Below, piece after piece: positions 2,867 to 43,733 of a DNA stretch of 43,733 nt. The DNA comes from Treponema denticola (lineage in GTDB: Bacteria > Spirochaetota > Spirochaetia > Treponematales > Breznakiellaceae), in contig DYPP01000005.1 in the NCBI GenBank assembly GCA_020719845.1, positions 10,692-54,424 on the forward strand, read 5' to 3'. The notes under the pieces were generated by a model. The model saw only the letters and a list, made by a program, of their open reading frames with translations, did not search any database and was not told where the DNA came from. The stretch's first letter is position 1, and each line of letters opens with the position of its first letter. The position numbers were made by a program, and so were the translations under genes.

Positions 2867-4126
2867 CTACGACTCAGTGTCCGCCGGGTCGGCGATGGCG
2901 GACCGGGTGCGGTTCTTCAAAAAGGAGGAGCAGTCCACCGCCGCCACCGCCACCAGGAACAGCGCAGCCAGGCGGAACATCCAGTGGATGTGGTCGGCCA
3001 GCGCCGTGGCCAGGAGGCCGCCCGCCAGGTAGCCCAGGGGGATGCTGCCCGTGGCGGCCGCCTCAACCGCGCCCTGGCGGCGGGCGGCGCTGCCGGGTTC
3101 CCCCAGTCGGTACACCAGGTGCAGGGTGACGATGTGCAGATAGCCGGCTGCCATGCCGGACAAGAAAAGCAAAGCCAGCAGCGGCCAGATGAACGGGGAA
3201 GCCAGAAAGCTGGCCGCGAAGGCGGCGCCGGCGGCGAGGACCAGGCTGGACCGGGCCAGTGCGGCTTGCCGGGATGGGGGCCAACGACTGCCGGGGCCGC
3301 TCATGAACAGGGTGGAAAGGATGCTGCCCGCCAAAAGGGCGGCCAGGCACAGTCCCAGGTACTCGGCGTCCAACCCCAGGCGGACTTTGAGGAAAGTGGG
3401 CAGGCTGACCACCATGAAGGCGGCGCTGACCTGAAAAGCCAGGTACAGCGACAGGGGTGCGCCGTGTCTGCCCGCTTCCTGCAGTTCCTTGTAAAGCTCT
3501 CCCAGGCTGGTTAGCGCGGACTTCTTCACTGCCGGGTCAGCCTTGATCGTCCCCGGATCGCGCCGGGCGGGTTTGATCAAAAGAATTTCCGAAAGTCCGC
3601 TCAGCATGAACATGAACCCGTTGGCGTAGAGCAGCGGCACCAGACCGTAGCGCAGGCTTAAAAGACCGCCCAAAGCCTGACCGGCCAGGCTGGCCAGGTG
3701 GCCGCCGGCGGTGCGCAGGCTCAGCAGATCCAGGCGATATCGGCGGCGGCGCTGCAGATCAAGGCTCAGGCTGATGATGGCCGGGGTAAAGAGGGCCTGC
3801 ATGGCCGCGTTGGCCAACACCAGCGGCAGGATGATGGGCATCAGGGCGGAGGTGCCGTACCGGGAAAGGGCAAGACCCGCGGCCATCAGGAAAACAGAGC
3901 GCACCAGATCGGTACCGGTGATGATCCCGCCGCGGTTGATCCGGTCGGCCAAGCTTCCGCCGTAGATGCTCAGCAAGAATACCGGCAGATAGGCTGAAGC
4001 CTGGATCAGGCCGATGTTGAGCGGTCCCGGGGCGTAGCGGGCCGCGGCTATCAGCAGGGCTACCAGATAGACGCTGTTGCCGAAGCCGGTAACCACGTTG
4101 CCCAGGACGATGACCACTGCGGTCAT
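2867..4126 (-). CDS. MFS transporter
   Basis: A 419-residue integral membrane protein of the major facilitator superfamily with about 10-12 hydrophobic segments. The loop after the second helix reads GGSLADRINRGGII, a variant of the MFS A-motif GxLaDrxGrr, followed by RSVFLMAAGLAL. The second half begins after a charged cytoplasmic loop (ARRDPGTIKADPAVKKSALTSLGELYKEL). The general fold resembles MFS_3/EntS-like exporters. No substrate can be assigned. Its ATG is separated from the stop of the upstream sulfatase-like gene by a single base, so the two are probably translationally coupled. That links it to the CDP-alcohol transferase/sulfatase group. Confidence 0.85.
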   Translation of the reverse strand: MTAVVIVLGNVVTGFGNSVYLVALLIAAARYAPGPLNIGLIQASAYLPVFLLSIYGGSLADRINRGGIITGTDLVRSVFLMAAGLALSRYGTSALMPIILPLVLANAAMQALFTPAIISLSLDLQRRRRYRLDLLSLRTAGGHLASLAGQALGGLLSLRYGLVPLLYANGFMFMLSGLSEILLIKPARRDPGTIKADPAVKKSALTSLGELYKELQEAGRHGAPLSLYLAFQVSAAFMVVSLPTFLKVRLGLDAEYLGLCLAALLAGSILSTLFMSGPGSRWPPSRQAALARSSLVLAAGAAFAASFLASPFIWPLLALLFLSGMAAGYLHIVTLHLVYRLGEPGSAARRQGAVEAAATGSIPLGYLAGGLLATALADHIHWMFRLAALFLVAVAAVDCSSFLKNRTRSAIADPADTES

Positions 4127-4127
4127 G

Positions 4128-5747
4128 CTACTGCTCCGTCATGGCCAGCGTCTCCAGCAAGGACGCTATGCGGTTCATGTCCGGCGCGGCCGGGTCCGGG
4201 TGGGGTTCAAAACCAGGAATCAGCTTCCGTTCGGCCAGCACGGCGGCGAGATCTTCGGTATACAGATTCCGGGGTAGGATCAGATGGAAGGGCACCTGGT
4301 AATCCGCGCCGGCGTGGCTGACGGGTTTGCGCGGCTGGTGGTCGCCGACGATGAGTCCCAGGTTCAAGCCCTGCAGCCGGCGGGTAAAAAGTCCGACCGA
4401 GGATCGCAGGGAATAGTTGATGCCCGCCAGGTAGCCTTCGGCCAGTTCGGTTCCCCCGAGCCAGTTGTTCTCAAAACGCCGCAGCGCGCCTTCATCTTCG
4501 AACTCAAGGCCTGCTCGGGTAAAATCCCAGGCTTCCCGGTAGACGGGTATGACTTCAAAGGGTACGTGGGAACTGACCAGCAGGTACAGGGCAAAATCCT
4601 TTTGGTCGGGGAGCAGCGCCGTCCGGGCTGCGTAATCCAGCAGGTACTGGTCGGGCAAGGCGCCGAAGCTGATGAAGGGTCCGGTGTACTCAAAGTCGTA
4701 GCGCAGCAGGTAGCGGTCAAAGGGGTACGCCCATCGCCATTCTTCCGGGGCGGTCCGGGTTCCGGGAGCCGCGTAGACGCGGTGGTAGCCCAACCCGCCA
4801 GCCAAGGCCAGCAGCCGGGCGGGCTCTTCGCCCGCGGCCAGGCGGTCGTAGGTCAGCTGGTCGGCGATCTGTATTCCCGTGAGCAGGGTGGCGTCCGCCA
4901 GCCAGCTCCGGCCGCCGAAAGCCGGGGATTGCACCGTGCCGGAAAGCACCGTGTAGCCTGCGCCCGCCAATTCCCGTTCAAGCTCGGCGTACAGGGTCTG
5001 CATGGGTCGGTGGTATTCGGGGCGTTGCAGCAGGGTAGCGCCGTAGGATTCCACCACGATCAGGTGCAGGTCCGCGTCCCGCAACCCCGGAGTTGGGGCT
5101 GCGGCCGGGGACCGGTCCGACGCCGATCCGGTTGGTGCTTGCCCCGCGTCCGGCGGGGCGGCTTGCGCCGGCGGCTCCCGGACCCGCAGCGTGCGGTACG
5201 CGTCCCGGGCGACGCGGATCAGCGGCGATTGCCCGGGCAGGATCAAAATCAGCAGCGCCCCGGCGAGCGCCAGCACGCCGTTGGTCCCCGGAAAACGCCG
5301 GGAATGGGCGTCTGCTCGGCGGCGGTAAGTGCGTTGCAGCGCCCAGACGACCCCCCGGGCGAGCGAACCGAGAAAAAGCGTTGCCAGGCTGACCGAAACC
5401 CAGCGCAGCACACTGTCCGAAACGGGGAGAGTAGGCGCCAGCAAACGGACCAGGCCGGGAATCAAGGCCAGATCGGTCCAGGGATTGAAGCGCTGCAGGT
5501 AAAAAAGGCGATAAAAAAATTCGCCGGCGTTGAAGGCCAGCAGCACGGCTACGAGCAGGGTCAAGGCGAAGCTTTGCAGCCCCGCCGCGATCCGGGTATT
5601 CCGGTCGACGTCCAGCAGGAGGCGGATAAAAAAGAGTTCCCCCAGGGGCACCAAAAACAACCAGGCCGAGGCGTCCGGCAGGGCCAACAGTCGGTGGGCG
5701 CCGAAGGCCAGCTGCAGGATCAGCAGTCGCAGCAGCTCAGGAATCAT
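4128..5747 (-). CDS. Membrane-anchored sulfatase/LTA-synthase-like (alkaline phosphatase superfamily) enzyme
   Basis: A 539-residue protein with four or five N-terminal membrane segments (roughly 5-25, 28-45, 55-78, 115-135, 155-172). A Pro/Ala-rich linker (190-222) joins them to an extracytoplasmic catalytic domain. The domain starts with LHLIVVESYG (228-236), where the Glu is the usual first metal ligand. It has SPAFGGRSWLADATLLTG (274-291), where a Ser/Thr nucleophile is expected, and near the end GDHQPRK, the D-H metal pair. This order matches LtaS, OpgB and EptA-like transferases and sulfatases. Likely roles are transfer or hydrolysis of phosphoglycerol, phosphoethanolamine or sulfate on an envelope glycan or lipid. 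The first 11 bases overlap the CDP-alcohol transferase gene, which suggests work on a product of that enzyme. Substrate unknown. Confidence 0.75.
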   Translation of the reverse strand: MIPELLRLLILQLAFGAHRLLALPDASAWLFLVPLGELFFIRLLLDVDRNTRIAAGLQSFALTLLVAVLLAFNAGEFFYRLFYLQRFNPWTDLALIPGLVRLLAPTLPVSDSVLRWVSVSLATLFLGSLARGVVWALQRTYRRRADAHSRRFPGTNGVLALAGALLILILPGQSPLIRVARDAYRTLRVREPPAQAAPPDAGQAPTGSASDRSPAAAPTPGLRDADLHLIVVESYGATLLQRPEYHRPMQTLYAELERELAGAGYTVLSGTVQSPAFGGRSWLADATLLTGIQIADQLTYDRLAAGEEPARLLALAGGLGYHRVYAAPGTRTAPEEWRWAYPFDRYLLRYDFEYTGPFISFGALPDQYLLDYAARTALLPDQKDFALYLLVSSHVPFEVIPVYREAWDFTRAGLEFEDEGALRRFENNWLGGTELAEGYLAGINYSLRSSVGLFTRRLQGLNLGLIVGDHQPRKPVSHAGADYQVPFHLILPRNLYTEDLAAVLAERKLIPGFEPHPDPAAPDMNRIASLLETLAMTEQ

Positions 5748-33280: not shown

Positions 33281-33375
33281 CGCATGGGCGGACAGCGGAC
33301 GAGAAAATCCCCGTATTCCTTGACTCGAACCCGCAACCCCATTAGAGTTGATGTATCGACACGAGGGAGACTGAC

Positions 33376-34440
33376 TTGAAAATTAAAATCCTTGGCACAA
33401 ACCGGTTTCTTTGTGCGGCGGTAGTATCGCTGGTGCTGGTTTCCAACGTCGACGCGACCTGGTCTATCGTCGCCGTCGACCCGGCAACGGGCGAGGTCGG
33501 GTCGGCGGGGGCGTCGCATACGCCCGCCGTGTGGCCGATACTGGGCATCGTCGGAGGCAAGGGTGCGGTCGTGGCACAGGCTTTGGGAAACGAAGCCGCC
33601 CGCCTGCTTGCCGTCGCGCAGCTGCAGCAAGGGGTTGATCCCGCCGCCATCATGAAAACAATCAGCAGCCCGGAATTCAGCGCTACGGTCGACAGCCAGC
33701 AATTCGGCCTGGCGACCTTGTACGGCGGCAGCGCCGGTTTTACCGGCGCCGCATGCGCGTCCTGGGCCGGTCACGCGGGGGATTACAGCGTCATGGTTCA
33801 GGGAAACATTCTGGCCAGCGATCACGTCGTTTCGGACGCGCTGGCTGCGTTCCGCGCGGCGAAGGCGGCGGGTTCGACGCTGTCGGAATGCCTCGTATCG
33901 GCGCTTCTTGCCGGTTCGTACGCGGGCGGCGATTCGCGGTCGGACGGAACGGACAGCGCCATGACCGCGTATATCGCGGTAGCCCAAAAGGACGATGCGC
34001 CGGGGAGACCGTCTTTCGCGCTTATCGTACCTCCGCAGGGAAAAGGGGTGAATCCCGTAAAGGTATTGTCGGATCGTTTTCTGGAGATGAAGGGACGGGA
34101 ACACCCGCTGTATTTTCCTTCATTAAACGAAATCATGCTCCTGTTGATCGGCATACCTCTGGCGGCAAGCATGATTGCGGGAATTCTCCTGCGAGTCAAA
34201 GCCGGTCCCCGGAAATTCGGCCGGTATACCTGGCTGGATCTCAGCATCAGCGCCGGTGTCCCGGTCCTCGGCTTTTTCTCGATGGCGGGACTTTCCCTTT
34301 TAATGTCCTGGGCGGCTCCGATCTACGGCGCCTATACGTGGGTGGTTCCATTGGCGCTGTTCACGCTGAGTATTCCCCTCTTCGGTATCGCGCGCGGTCT
34401 CTATTGGATGATCGCCAGGCTCGCGAAAAAAGGTCGATGA
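33376..34440 (+). CDS. Exported DUF1028 (putative Ntn-hydrolase) protein with C-terminal membrane helices
   Basis: A 354-residue protein starting at a TTG with GAGGGAG 6 bases upstream. The signal peptide (about 1-27) ends VSNVDA, followed by TWSIVAVDPATGEVGSAGASHTPAVWP, the conserved start of the DUF1028 family, which has an Ntn-hydrolase-like fold and no settled function. Cleavage after A27 would leave Thr28 as the free N-terminus, where an Ntn nucleophile belongs. The domain runs to about residue 225 (WAGHAGDYSVMVQGNIL, LAGSYAGGDSRSDGTDSA). The tail has three membrane helices (about 250-272, 283-312, 316-345), unusual for this family. Base composition looks less GC-rich than its neighbours, hinting at transfer. 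It is followed by a small GATGAT-AAA-ATCATC hairpin. Confidence 0.8.
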   Translation: MKIKILGTNRFLCAAVVSLVLVSNVDATWSIVAVDPATGEVGSAGASHTPAVWPILGIVGGKGAVVAQALGNEAARLLAVAQLQQGVDPAAIMKTISSPEFSATVDSQQFGLATLYGGSAGFTGAACASWAGHAGDYSVMVQGNILASDHVVSDALAAFRAAKAAGSTLSECLVSALLAGSYAGGDSRSDGTDSAMTAYIAVAQKDDAPGRPSFALIVPPQGKGVNPVKVLSDRFLEMKGREHPLYFPSLNEIMLLLIGIPLAASMIAGILLRVKAGPRKFGRYTWLDLSISAGVPVLGFFSMAGLSLLMSWAAPIYGAYTWVVPLALFTLSIPLFGIARGLYWMIARLAKKGR

Positions 34441-35484: not shown

Positions 35485-39808
<4,324 letters not shown>

Positions 39809-39813
39809 GGCGG

Positions 39814-41151
39814 CTATTCTGCGCCGGGCGCCGCTTTTTCCGAAGCGTGGAACAAGACCGCTCCGGCTACGAACAGGATGATCAGCGACAACACGCCGTA
39901 GCGCATGGTGCCCCCGGGTTGCGGTCCGGCGGCGTTCAGGACCAGCAGGGAAATACCCCCCACCAGCGCCGGACCGAGCACGGACGCGAACCGGCCGAAA
40001 ATCGTGTAGAATCCGAAGAATTCGTTGGCCATGTTCTTGGGGATGATTTTGCCGAAATACGATCGGGACAGGGACTGGATGGCGCCCTGGGAAGATGCTA
40101 CCAGCAGTCCGAGCACCCAGAACTGCCAGATGGCGTGGATGAAGAGCGCGAAGACGGCGATGACGACGTACACGGCGATGGTGATGAACAGCAGGGTGCG
40201 GGTCCGGTAGGTTTTGGAAAGCCGGGCGAACAGCAGGGCAAAGAAGAAGGCCATGACCTGGATGGCCAGCAGGATGGGCAGCAGGATGGCCGTGGCGTTG
40301 TCTGCGGTCACCGCCTCGATGGCGTCGGCGGCAAAGGGCACGGCCATGGCGATGACCGTATGCACGCCGTCGATGTACAGAAAATAGGCCAGCAAAAACA
40401 GAAAGACCGGTTTGTAGCTGCGCGCGTCGGCAAAGGTGCGTCTCAGGCGGACAAAAGATTTGCGGACCGGCTGGGGCTCGGGATCGATGCCGTGCACCTG
40501 CTGGACGTTCTTGATGAAGGGCAGCGAAAAAACCAGCCACCAGATCGACGTCATGATAAAGGTGATCCGGAAACCCGTATACGCGTCGTAGGGAAAGGAT
40601 AGCCCCAGCATCGAAAGCCGCCCGTCCACCGTCAGACCCGGCAATACCTGTAGCAGTACGATGGACAAGATCAGCGGAATGGTGCTGCCGCCGATATACC
40701 CGAAGGCGTAGGCCGTGGTGGAGACCCGATCCATGTTTTCGTCGCTGGTGGCGTCCACGATGAAGGAATCATAGAACACATTGGTGCCCGCATAGCCGAT
40801 GGACGCCAGCGTATAGGGTATCAGGACCATCCACCAGAAGGCCGGGTCCGCGGGATAGAACCCGATCAGGAAGGTAAAGACGATGCCGATGGCAAAAAAG
40901 AACATGAAGACCCGTTTTTTATAGCCCCGGTAGTCCGCCACCGTCCCGAGGATCGGGGACAGCACCGCGACGGAAAGGCTTACCGCGGAAACCAGGAACC
41001 CGTACAGGGAATTGGCCCCGATGATGTCCTTGGTCAGCAGACCGTAGAGCATGGGAAAAATGAAGGCGCTCACGATCACGGTAAAACAGGATTCCGCCCA
41101 ATCGTAAAAAATATACGACCATTCTTTTTTGTTGAAACTCATAATCGCCAT
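39814..41151 (-). CDS. UMF1-family MFS transporter
   Basis: A 445-residue major facilitator of the UMF1/Atg22-like family with about 12 helices. Hallmarks: NKKEWSYIFYDWAESCFTVIVSAFIFPMLY at the N-terminus (the YDWA motif), SPILGTVADYRGYKKR as the A-loop, YDSFIVDATSDENMDRVSTTAYAFGYIGG, and later SLSRSYFGKIIPKNMANEFFGFY. Related proteins export amino acids in yeast vacuoles, but the bacterial substrates are unknown. The ATG at 41151 has AGGGGGA upstream. An ATG at 41181 and one at 41142 are alternatives. First gene of a unit with the phospholipase-like gene. Confidence 0.92.
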   Translation of the reverse strand: MAIMSFNKKEWSYIFYDWAESCFTVIVSAFIFPMLYGLLTKDIIGANSLYGFLVSAVSLSVAVLSPILGTVADYRGYKKRVFMFFFAIGIVFTFLIGFYPADPAFWWMVLIPYTLASIGYAGTNVFYDSFIVDATSDENMDRVSTTAYAFGYIGGSTIPLILSIVLLQVLPGLTVDGRLSMLGLSFPYDAYTGFRITFIMTSIWWLVFSLPFIKNVQQVHGIDPEPQPVRKSFVRLRRTFADARSYKPVFLFLLAYFLYIDGVHTVIAMAVPFAADAIEAVTADNATAILLPILLAIQVMAFFFALLFARLSKTYRTRTLLFITIAVYVVIAVFALFIHAIWQFWVLGLLVASSQGAIQSLSRSYFGKIIPKNMANEFFGFYTIFGRFASVLGPALVGGISLLVLNAAGPQPGGTMRYGVLSLIILFVAGAVLFHASEKAAPGAE

Positions 41152-41958: not shown

Positions 41959-42083
41959 CGGACGTTCCGTCGGCGGCGTTACGTGGGTTCCCGAGGGATT
42001 TCCACCCGATTCCCGGCGGGGTTTAAAAACTGACACCCGAACCTTTACCGGTTACCATGTTATCTGATTCAAAGGAGTCGGGA

Positions 42084-43733
42084 TTGAAGAAGCTCTCGCA
42101 CAAGCTGGTTCTTTTTGTCGGTGTGGCCATCATCAGCGTGGTCACCGTGGTCGGAGCGCTTTCCCTGTACTTCCTCTACCAGCTCGCCTCGACGGACGCG
42201 GAGCACCTTGAAACATTCCTGATGGAAAAGTACGACGAGGAAATCCGCTGGCAGACCGAACAGGCCAACAGCATGCTGGTGGACATCGGCAAACTCCGCG
42301 ACTCGGGACTGCTGGCCGATGAGCAGGCTTTCACGGTGGCCCAAACCCTGCTCAACGCGCTGCGCTATGGCAAGGAAGGCTATTTTTGGGCCGATACGGT
42401 GGAAGGCGTCAACGTCGTCCACGGCAGCAAGCCGGAAAACATCGGCCGCAACCGGATCAACGACCTGGACGCCAAGGGTTTCAAATTGGTCGCCGCCTTG
42501 ATCGAGAAGGGAAAAGCCGGCGGGGGCTATACGGACTACTACTATCCCCGGCCGGGTTCGGAAGTTGCCGAGCCCAAGCGGGGCTACAGCCTGCTGAACC
42601 CCACCTTCGGCTGGGTGCTGGGCACGGGCAATTACTTTGACGATATCCAGAAAGCCGTTGAACAACAAAGAATCGCCGCCGGGGACAACGTCAAGCGCAT
42701 CGTCGGCCTTGTCACCCTGGCCATCATCCTGATCACCGGCTTGATCATCCTGATCGTGGCTTTTTCCAGCCGGCTGATCACCCGGCCCATCCAGGCGGTC
42801 AGCGCGGCGCTCAAGGAAATCTCCTGCGGCGCCGGGGACCTGACCCAAAAACTGCCCGTCATCGGCCGGGACGAGATCGGCCAGCTGTCGCATTACTTCA
42901 ACGAATTTCTGGCCAGCCTGAATACGACCATGGTGGAAGCCAAAGCCGCGTCCGGAAAGGTGGTGGCGCTGGGCAACCAGATGCGCGCCAACGCGGATGA
43001 TCTAAAAAAATCGACCCGGGAAATCCACGGCGGCGTCGACCAGATGCGCAGCAAGGTGGGCGACCAGGCCCAGAGCATCAGCGGCACTTCTTCCGCGGTG
43101 GAGCAGATTGCCCGCAACATCGAGTCCCTCAGCCAGCAGATCGAAGCCCAGGCTTCCAACGTCACCGAGTCTTCCGCCAGCATCGAAGAAATGGTTGGCA
43201 ACATCCGGTCGGTCACGCACAACCTGTCCATCACCTCGGAACAATTCGCCCAGCTCGTCGACGCTTCCCGGGTCGGGCGGGAAAAGATCGACGGCGTGGC
43301 CCAGAGCGCCCAGAGCGCCCAGACGCACTCGGACCACCTGATCGAAGCCAACGCCATCATCCAGTCCATCGCCAGCCAGACCAACCTGCTGGCCATGAAC
43401 GCCGCCATCGAGGCCGCCCACGCCGGGGACGCGGGCCGGGGCTTTACCGTCGTGGCCGAAGAGATCCGCAAGCTCGCGGAAAACGCTTCCAACCAGTCCA
43501 AAGAGATTGAAGGCAACCTGCGGCGGATCAAAGAAACCATCGACCTGGTCGTCACGAGTTCCGGCGACGCGGGCAGCGCTTTTTCCAACATCGAACAACT
43601 GGTGCGCCGGGTCGAAAACCTGGTCACCGAGATTCAGCAGGCCATGCAGGAGCAGAACGAGGGCAACCAGCAGGTACTGGAATCGCTGAAGGACATGCAG
43701 AACATCACCACCGAGGTCAAGGACGGCTCGGGC
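42084..43733 (+). CDS. Methyl-accepting chemotaxis protein with a single Cache domain (partial)
   Basis: A transmembrane chemoreceptor, 550 residues visible, open at the window end. TM1 is at about 8-31. A periplasmic single-Cache (sCache_2-like) sensor at about 35-195 contains [10 protein letters not shown] and [19 protein letters not shown]2 is at about 205-228, HAMP at about 230-285, and then a coiled-coil signalling domain. The conserved hairpin tip is present at about 429-466 ([20 protein letters not shown], then [19 protein letters not shown]), which binds CheA and CheW. sCache_2 sensors typically bind small organic acids, but the ligand is not known. Start: TTG at 42084 with AAGGAG 6 bases upstream. 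An in-frame ATG at 42057 has no ribosome site. Confidence 0.95.

Follow-up and report, generated by a model that had tools for sequence, protein, structure and literature searches.

The locus described here raises the question of whether export by itself could activate an enzyme: an earlier note on this DNA had claimed that the signal peptide of an exported DUF1028 protein ends exactly before TWSIVAVD and that signal peptidase may thereby expose a catalytic threonine. DUF1028 is a widespread family for which we know of no function. The gene lies in the window, by which we mean the whole stretch of 43,733 nucleotides analysed, and its open reading frame of 354 codons begins with TTG (Table 1). 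The first 27 residues, LKIKILGTNRFLCAAVVSLVLVSNVDA (first residue read as Met), consist of basic residues followed by a hydrophobic core and VDA at positions -3 to -1, and TWSIVAVD follows directly. The cleavage site was placed by the (-3,-1) rule and by comparison of relatives; where the window protein reads VDA/T (the slash marks the bond in question), its two closest homologues read AYA/T and LSA/T. The Pfam match to DUF1028 starts at that same Thr, residue 28, in agreement with the claim.

Table 1. Features of the DUF1028 gene and its product, with positions in the window
Feature	Position	Strand	Evidence or remark
DUF1028 gene, exported, three C-terminal membrane helices, 354 aa	33376..34440	+	ORF; Pfam; full-length homologues L009, L223
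Ribosome-binding-like GAGGGAG	33363..33369	+	Ends 6 nt before TTG; sequence, inference
Signal peptide, 27 aa, ends VDA	33376..33456	+	Sequence; comparison with relatives
Thr28 codon, proposed N-terminal nucleophile Thr1	33457..33459	+	Conservation; residue 1 of HslV and of 20S beta chains in the same register
DUF1028 / Ntn-fold domain, mature residues 1-210	33457..34086	+	Pfam match itself 33457-33963; model
Membrane helix 1, mature 226-244	34132..34188	+	Kyte-Doolittle mean 2.5; model helix 223-249
Membrane helix 2, mature 264-282	34246..34302	+	Kyte-Doolittle mean 1.79; model helix 271-289, low confidence
Membrane helix 3, mature 294-312, then basic tail	34336..34392	+	Kyte-Doolittle mean 1.85; model helix 293-324

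The profile PF06267 matched the window protein with 108.7 bits (cut-off 26.2, E 4.1e-31) over positions 1-164 of 193. Alignments of 202 and 83 sequences revealed the DUF1028 signature in it, namely the start T-[WFY]-S-I together with Gln41, Gln82, Gly97, Asn117 and Asp159, and an NCBIfam scan of 5 proteins gave no match at E 0.1 or better. An AlphaFold2 model was calculated from the mature window protein and 80 relatives. Its mean pLDDT was 84.8, with block means of 92-98 over residues 1-210 and 41-83 beyond, and the first strand begins at residue 2. A Foldseek search with this model returned the DUF1028 structure 2imh at the top (E 5.5e-14), followed by proteasome subunits and taspase-1 from E 5.9e-4 upward. 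VIA-align superposed the model on 2imh with Z 28.6 (rmsd 2.2, 199 residues), on circularly permuted taspase-1 with Z 15.9 (rmsd 3.5, 199 residues), on HslV with Z 12.3 (rmsd 3.2, 150 residues) and on 20S beta chains with Z up to 11.9 (e.g. rmsd 4.0 over 164). The alignment opens with residue 1 of the model paired to residue 1 of the chain, which we take to be the catalytic Thr, for E. coli HslV (1e94_A) and for many beta chains. The Lachnospiraceae homologue L009 was modelled as well (mean pLDDT 86.7); its strands and helices follow one another in a similar order, again with three helices at the C-terminus. The mature domain is thus confidently predicted to have the alpha-beta-beta-alpha fold of Ntn hydrolases, and the structural comparison proposed in the earlier note bears out both fold and Thr register for the predicted model against HslV, 20S beta chains and taspase-1.

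Our homologue set comprised 202 distinct sequences, drawn from 221 loci. All but three have the Thr (199 of 202); the exceptions are L004, which is the rear portion of a gene broken across two frames, and L187 and L188, which have Ala or Ser. The motif search that yielded 80 of the loci required Ala or Met before Thr, and these loci are therefore uninformative on the preceding residue. A subset of 114 rows from L089-L221, found by profile or precursor similarity and called unfiltered here, represent the best approximately 30 per search by similarity, weaker relatives lying outside the counts. Among the matches listed, Thr occurs in 112 of these 114, the other two having Ala and Ser. The reading in the earlier note depended on Thr being conserved among exported homologues, and it is conserved. 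Ser3, Gln82, Gly97 and Asp159 are conserved about as well (Ser3 in 201 of the 202), so that conservation alone does not single out Thr1.

Behind the domain, the window protein has three hydrophobic segments, and AlphaFold2 gave low confidence for the membrane part in both models. Lys and Arg residues number 5 in the loop between helices 1 and 2, 0 in the loop between helices 2 and 3, and 5 in the tail; the corresponding numbers are 4, 1, 5 and 2, 0, 4 in the two full-length homologues. By the positive-inside rule, this pattern places the DUF1028 domain outside and the tail inside, so the claim that the C-terminal helices hold the domain at the outer face is supported in three homologues. That the protein is exported and held in the membrane is very probable. 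At least two hydrophobic segments after the domain were found only in the window protein and L009 among the 202 sequences, L223 being found later, whereas a single C-terminal segment occurs in L013, L146 and L174.

The anchored three-helix form is rare and was seen in three genomes: that of the window, one from a different family within the same order, and one of the Lachnospiraceae. Of 58 related genomes, the window's alone contains PF06267, and across the window's phylum the profile matches in 4 of 392. A search with the window protein across the order gave matches in 3 of 136 genomes: the window's own, the genome encoding L223 (G1853, of the other family; 43% identical over 9-349) and a third whose match (E 9.9e-4, two stops) is probably due to chance. 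L009 is 42% identical over 16-354, and the same search found matches in 4 of 391 genomes of its class and 1 of 120 of its family, L009's own included. The L009 gene has 41.7% GC on a Herbinix sp. contig with 37.0%, far from the 60.8% of the window gene.

The window gene had been described as less GC-rich than its neighbours and possibly acquired. The first part stands only for third codon positions. Seven Pfam-supported neighbours range from 59.3 to 67.7% GC, so a plain GC of 60.8% is not exceptional, whereas the GC3 of 70.1% is the lowest of the eight genes (neighbours 75.8-87.4%). Synonymous codon usage also deviates most in the window gene, with z 8.0 against -0.1 to 3.1 for the other seven when two unsupported ORFs are left out of the reference set; with them included, the value is 5.6, those ORFs reach 12.4 and 8.2, and two others 4.8 and 5.2. 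Two ORFs of the window (38906-40540 and 42069-42893) are long, lie on the minus strand, have no Pfam match and show codon-position GC unlike that of their neighbours; they are perhaps not genes. The patchy distribution and deviant codon usage make the suggestion of acquisition reasonable, and they fit horizontal acquisition by the window's organism, with neither donor nor direction indicated. As to mobile carriage, no phage match was found, 74 stretches of viral contigs matched a pattern with none confirmed, 36 plasmid records matched with none over 80% of the query, and scans for repeats, promoters and terminators around the gene gave nothing usable.

Upstream of the window gene lie SerA-like, SerC-like and FemAB-like genes, and it converges with an epimerase gene; none of these neighbours suggests a substrate. 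The ORFs beside L009, read by eye, looked different. A common ORF layout is shared by the alphaproteobacterial loci L016, L069 and L070. In L016 and L069 (approximately 2900-5700), an exported DUF1028 gene stands between luciferase-like monooxygenase and lysine-decarboxylase-like genes, in which we saw no bearing on the window. On three annotated plasmid regions, the cytosolic DUF1028 genes L006, L225 and L008 belong to operons for ABC transporters; a gene of the gamma-glutamyltransferase family adjoins two of them, and an M20 hydrolase gene lies near one. This context, from as few as three loci, suggests that the cytosolic relatives may act in the breakdown of peptides or amides, and on this basis we propose that the window protein could be an ecto-amidohydrolase activated by signal peptidase.

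How Thr would be exposed was assessed from what precedes it. By a hydrophobicity rule whose boundaries we set ourselves (an 11-residue hydrophobic window with a mean of at least 1.7, called near if it ends at -10 or nearer), and with L078 and L178 added and L003 removed by hand, 94 of the 202 sequences bear a signal. Class E0 (28 of 202) has a core ending 3-10 residues before Thr and obeys the (-3,-1) rule exactly at Thr; in class E2 (6 of 202) the core is equally near and the rule fails; in class ES (60 of the 94) the core ends 11-34 residues before Thr, leaving a spacer. Class M (79 of 202) has a start codon directly before Thr, which in 37 of the 79 is the sole one after a stop within 12 codons, and class X (29) has other extensions. 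The 114 unfiltered rows, among the matches listed, divide into E0 14, E2 6, ES 50, M 21 and X 23, with a spacer in 50 of the 70 signal-bearing proteins.

Proteins with Trp as the second residue (TW, the type of the window protein) behave uniformly. All 21 that bear a signal belong to class E0, with Ala (20) or Gly (1) at -1 and Ala (19), Val (1) or Ser (1) at -3. Twelve unfiltered TW proteins were found among the matches listed. Ten are of class E0, with Ala or Gly at -1 and Ala or Ser at -3; the other two, L177 and L180, have a GTG start codon directly before Thr and no signal in any frame. A site of the signal-peptidase type exactly before Thr, as claimed for the window protein, therefore recurs in every signal-bearing TW protein of the set, including ten found without a motif for the preceding residue.

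As a family-wide rule, exposure by signal peptidase is not supported. Considering that 60 of the 94 signal-bearing homologues have a spacer, signal peptidase alone would be insufficient to expose Thr there, and the Thr of these relatives is internal unless they cut themselves or are cut again. Outside the window's clade, the spacer occurs in 59 of 63 signal-bearing proteins. Within the clade, L144, L145, L147 and L150, from the Bacteroidota search, read QD/T, and L146 reads QH/T; signal peptidase is not known to accept such a residue at -1, so these five probably keep at least two residues before Thr. Activation by signal peptidase is thus a prediction that sequence comparison supports well for the TW branch only. 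An N-terminal nucleophile freed in this way is predicted for the TW branch, and the simple rule is contradicted by the spacer-bearing relatives.

Trees were built after removal of near-copies, with 80 rows by a quick method and 38 rows by a careful one. In the 80-domain tree, 30 sequences including the window protein (25 E0, 4 E2 and 1 M) form a group separate from the remaining 50 with SH-aLRT 100, and class E0 requires 5 changes on this tree as against 22.8 in shuffles. In the 38-row tree the window's clade has support of 100/99, the three-helix proteins group together (94/93, just below a star), the window protein being sister to L009 (98/88), and cytosolic L177 and L180 nest beside exported proteins (98/91). 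Our list of 33 clade members consists of the group of 30 plus L145 and L180, which fell in the clade in the 38-row tree, and L070, which was in neither tree. The nesting of L177 and L180 among exported members implies that two processing routes would reach the same Thr. The clade thus seems to have exchanged one means of freeing Thr for another, signal peptidase or presumably methionine aminopeptidase, at an unchanged position; these trees, lacking a sure root, do not give the direction. Among the present results, this change of route at a constant position argues most strongly for the importance of a free Thr1.

The clade also carries a pair of cysteines. In mature numbering these are Cys21 and Cys162; 31 of the 33 members have both, whereas none of the remaining 169 among the 202 does, one of them having Cys21 alone. 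The two exceptions within the clade are the window protein and L009, and L223 likewise lacks both; the window protein has His (33517-33519) and Ser (33940-33942) at these sites. A disulfide in the exported proteins would be the obvious guess, and because cytosolic L177 and L180 keep both residues, another role for the pair is possible. Domain architecture varies among the clade members scanned: Pfam finds DUF1028 with PKD in L042, with a secretion tail in L064, and with an invasin-like domain and a secretion tail in L144, and finds DUF1028 alone in L010, L013 and L171. The actinobacterial member L013 has a strong hydrophobic segment at mature 241-259, a possible independent membrane anchor.

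The domain identity, the fold, the register and conservation of Thr, and the signal-like and anchor-like segments were all shown computationally. From these we infer a cut at the VDA/T bond, catalysis by Thr1 and the class of substrate. The signal peptide would export the DUF1028 domain, and signal peptidase I would cut VDA/TWS, freeing the alpha-amino group of Thr1. This group would serve as general base and the hydroxyl of the same residue as nucleophile for hydrolysis of an amide bond, probably of a small peptide or amide, while the three C-terminal helices would tether the domain to the cytoplasmic membrane on its outer side. That the protein is a membrane-anchored ecto-enzyme of the Ntn type with such a Thr1 mechanism seems to us somewhat better than an even bet. 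Extending this to a clade in which export equals activation falls a little short of even and is offered tentatively: signal peptidase I would be the sole maturase, the three-helix enzyme, tethered outside, would have moved between phyla, and in the signal-less pair a start codon before the same Thr would let methionine removal substitute.

The most serious competing explanation, which we consider unlikely yet worth weighing, is that Thr1 is conserved for a structural role at the start of the first strand, and that the protein binds a ligand or acts through Ser3, Gln41, Gln82, Asn117 and Asp159. The coincidence of the signal site with Thr would then merely reflect where the domain starts. This explanation accounts for the retention of Thr where it is seemingly internal (the 60 spacer-bearing proteins and the 29 with other extensions among the 202) and for the near-invariance of Ser3, although L223 has Thr at position 3. 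Against it stand the TW branch, in which nothing would be left before Thr in either compartment, and the match of the fold to Thr-dependent Ntn hydrolases with Thr in the correct register. Self-cleavage before the nucleophile is common to many Ntn hydrolases, and if the family as a whole cleaves itself before Thr, the signal-peptidase site of the clade would be a secondary short cut or unnecessary. Such a scheme would unify spacer-bearing and directly exposed members, and the spacer proteins indeed have mostly Ala, His or Ser before Thr (24, 17 and 12 of 60), preceded by apolar residues. We nevertheless regard it as improbable, since the ten unfiltered exported TW members have a usable site at Thr and no propeptide. 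Finally, a signal that is uncut or cut elsewhere, for instance at LVS/NVDATW, so that Thr is not N-terminal in the window protein, is very improbable: LVS/N also conforms to a loose (-3,-1) rule, but VDA/T has Ala at -1 and the closest two homologues read AYA/T and LSA/T.

Exposure of Thr1 by signal peptidase thus gives a concrete activation hypothesis for one clade, in which export would equal activation, and it names the residue to mutate. The comparison also sets this clade apart from spacer-bearing relatives, which would need other processing if Thr is the nucleophile at all. A domain of unknown function thereby becomes a directly testable enzyme candidate. The family itself is already known as DUF1028, and the anchored exported form is a new variant within it.

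Several known systems can be compared with this protein. In some Gram-negative choloylglycine hydrolases the signal ends at the nucleophile, a case that our literature search did not retrieve; nor did it find a direct precedent for an Ntn nucleophile exposed by signal removal, or the terms DUF1028, PF06267 and COG3342, which says little about subscription journals. Choloylglycine hydrolases are Ntn enzymes whose N-terminal residue must be freed for activity (PMC8066178). These enzymes, bile salt hydrolase and penicillin V acylase, belong to another sequence family and use a Cys nucleophile, whereas the window protein has Thr at that position; they are not known to carry a C-terminal membrane anchor. 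The nearest solved structure is 2imh (SPO2555 of Silicibacter pomeroyi), which belongs to the same Pfam family and matches in sequence with E 3.4e-5 and 22-25% identity. Its chain begins two residues ahead of the position that pairs with Ala27 in the window protein and so has extra residues before Thr, and no signal peptide or membrane helices were seen. Compared with HslV and the proteasome, the window protein has no known self-compartment, and no counterpart of the proteasome Lys33 was identified in it. With HslV, 20S beta chains and taspase-1, at 10-16% identity, it has in common the fold and the place of the first residue.
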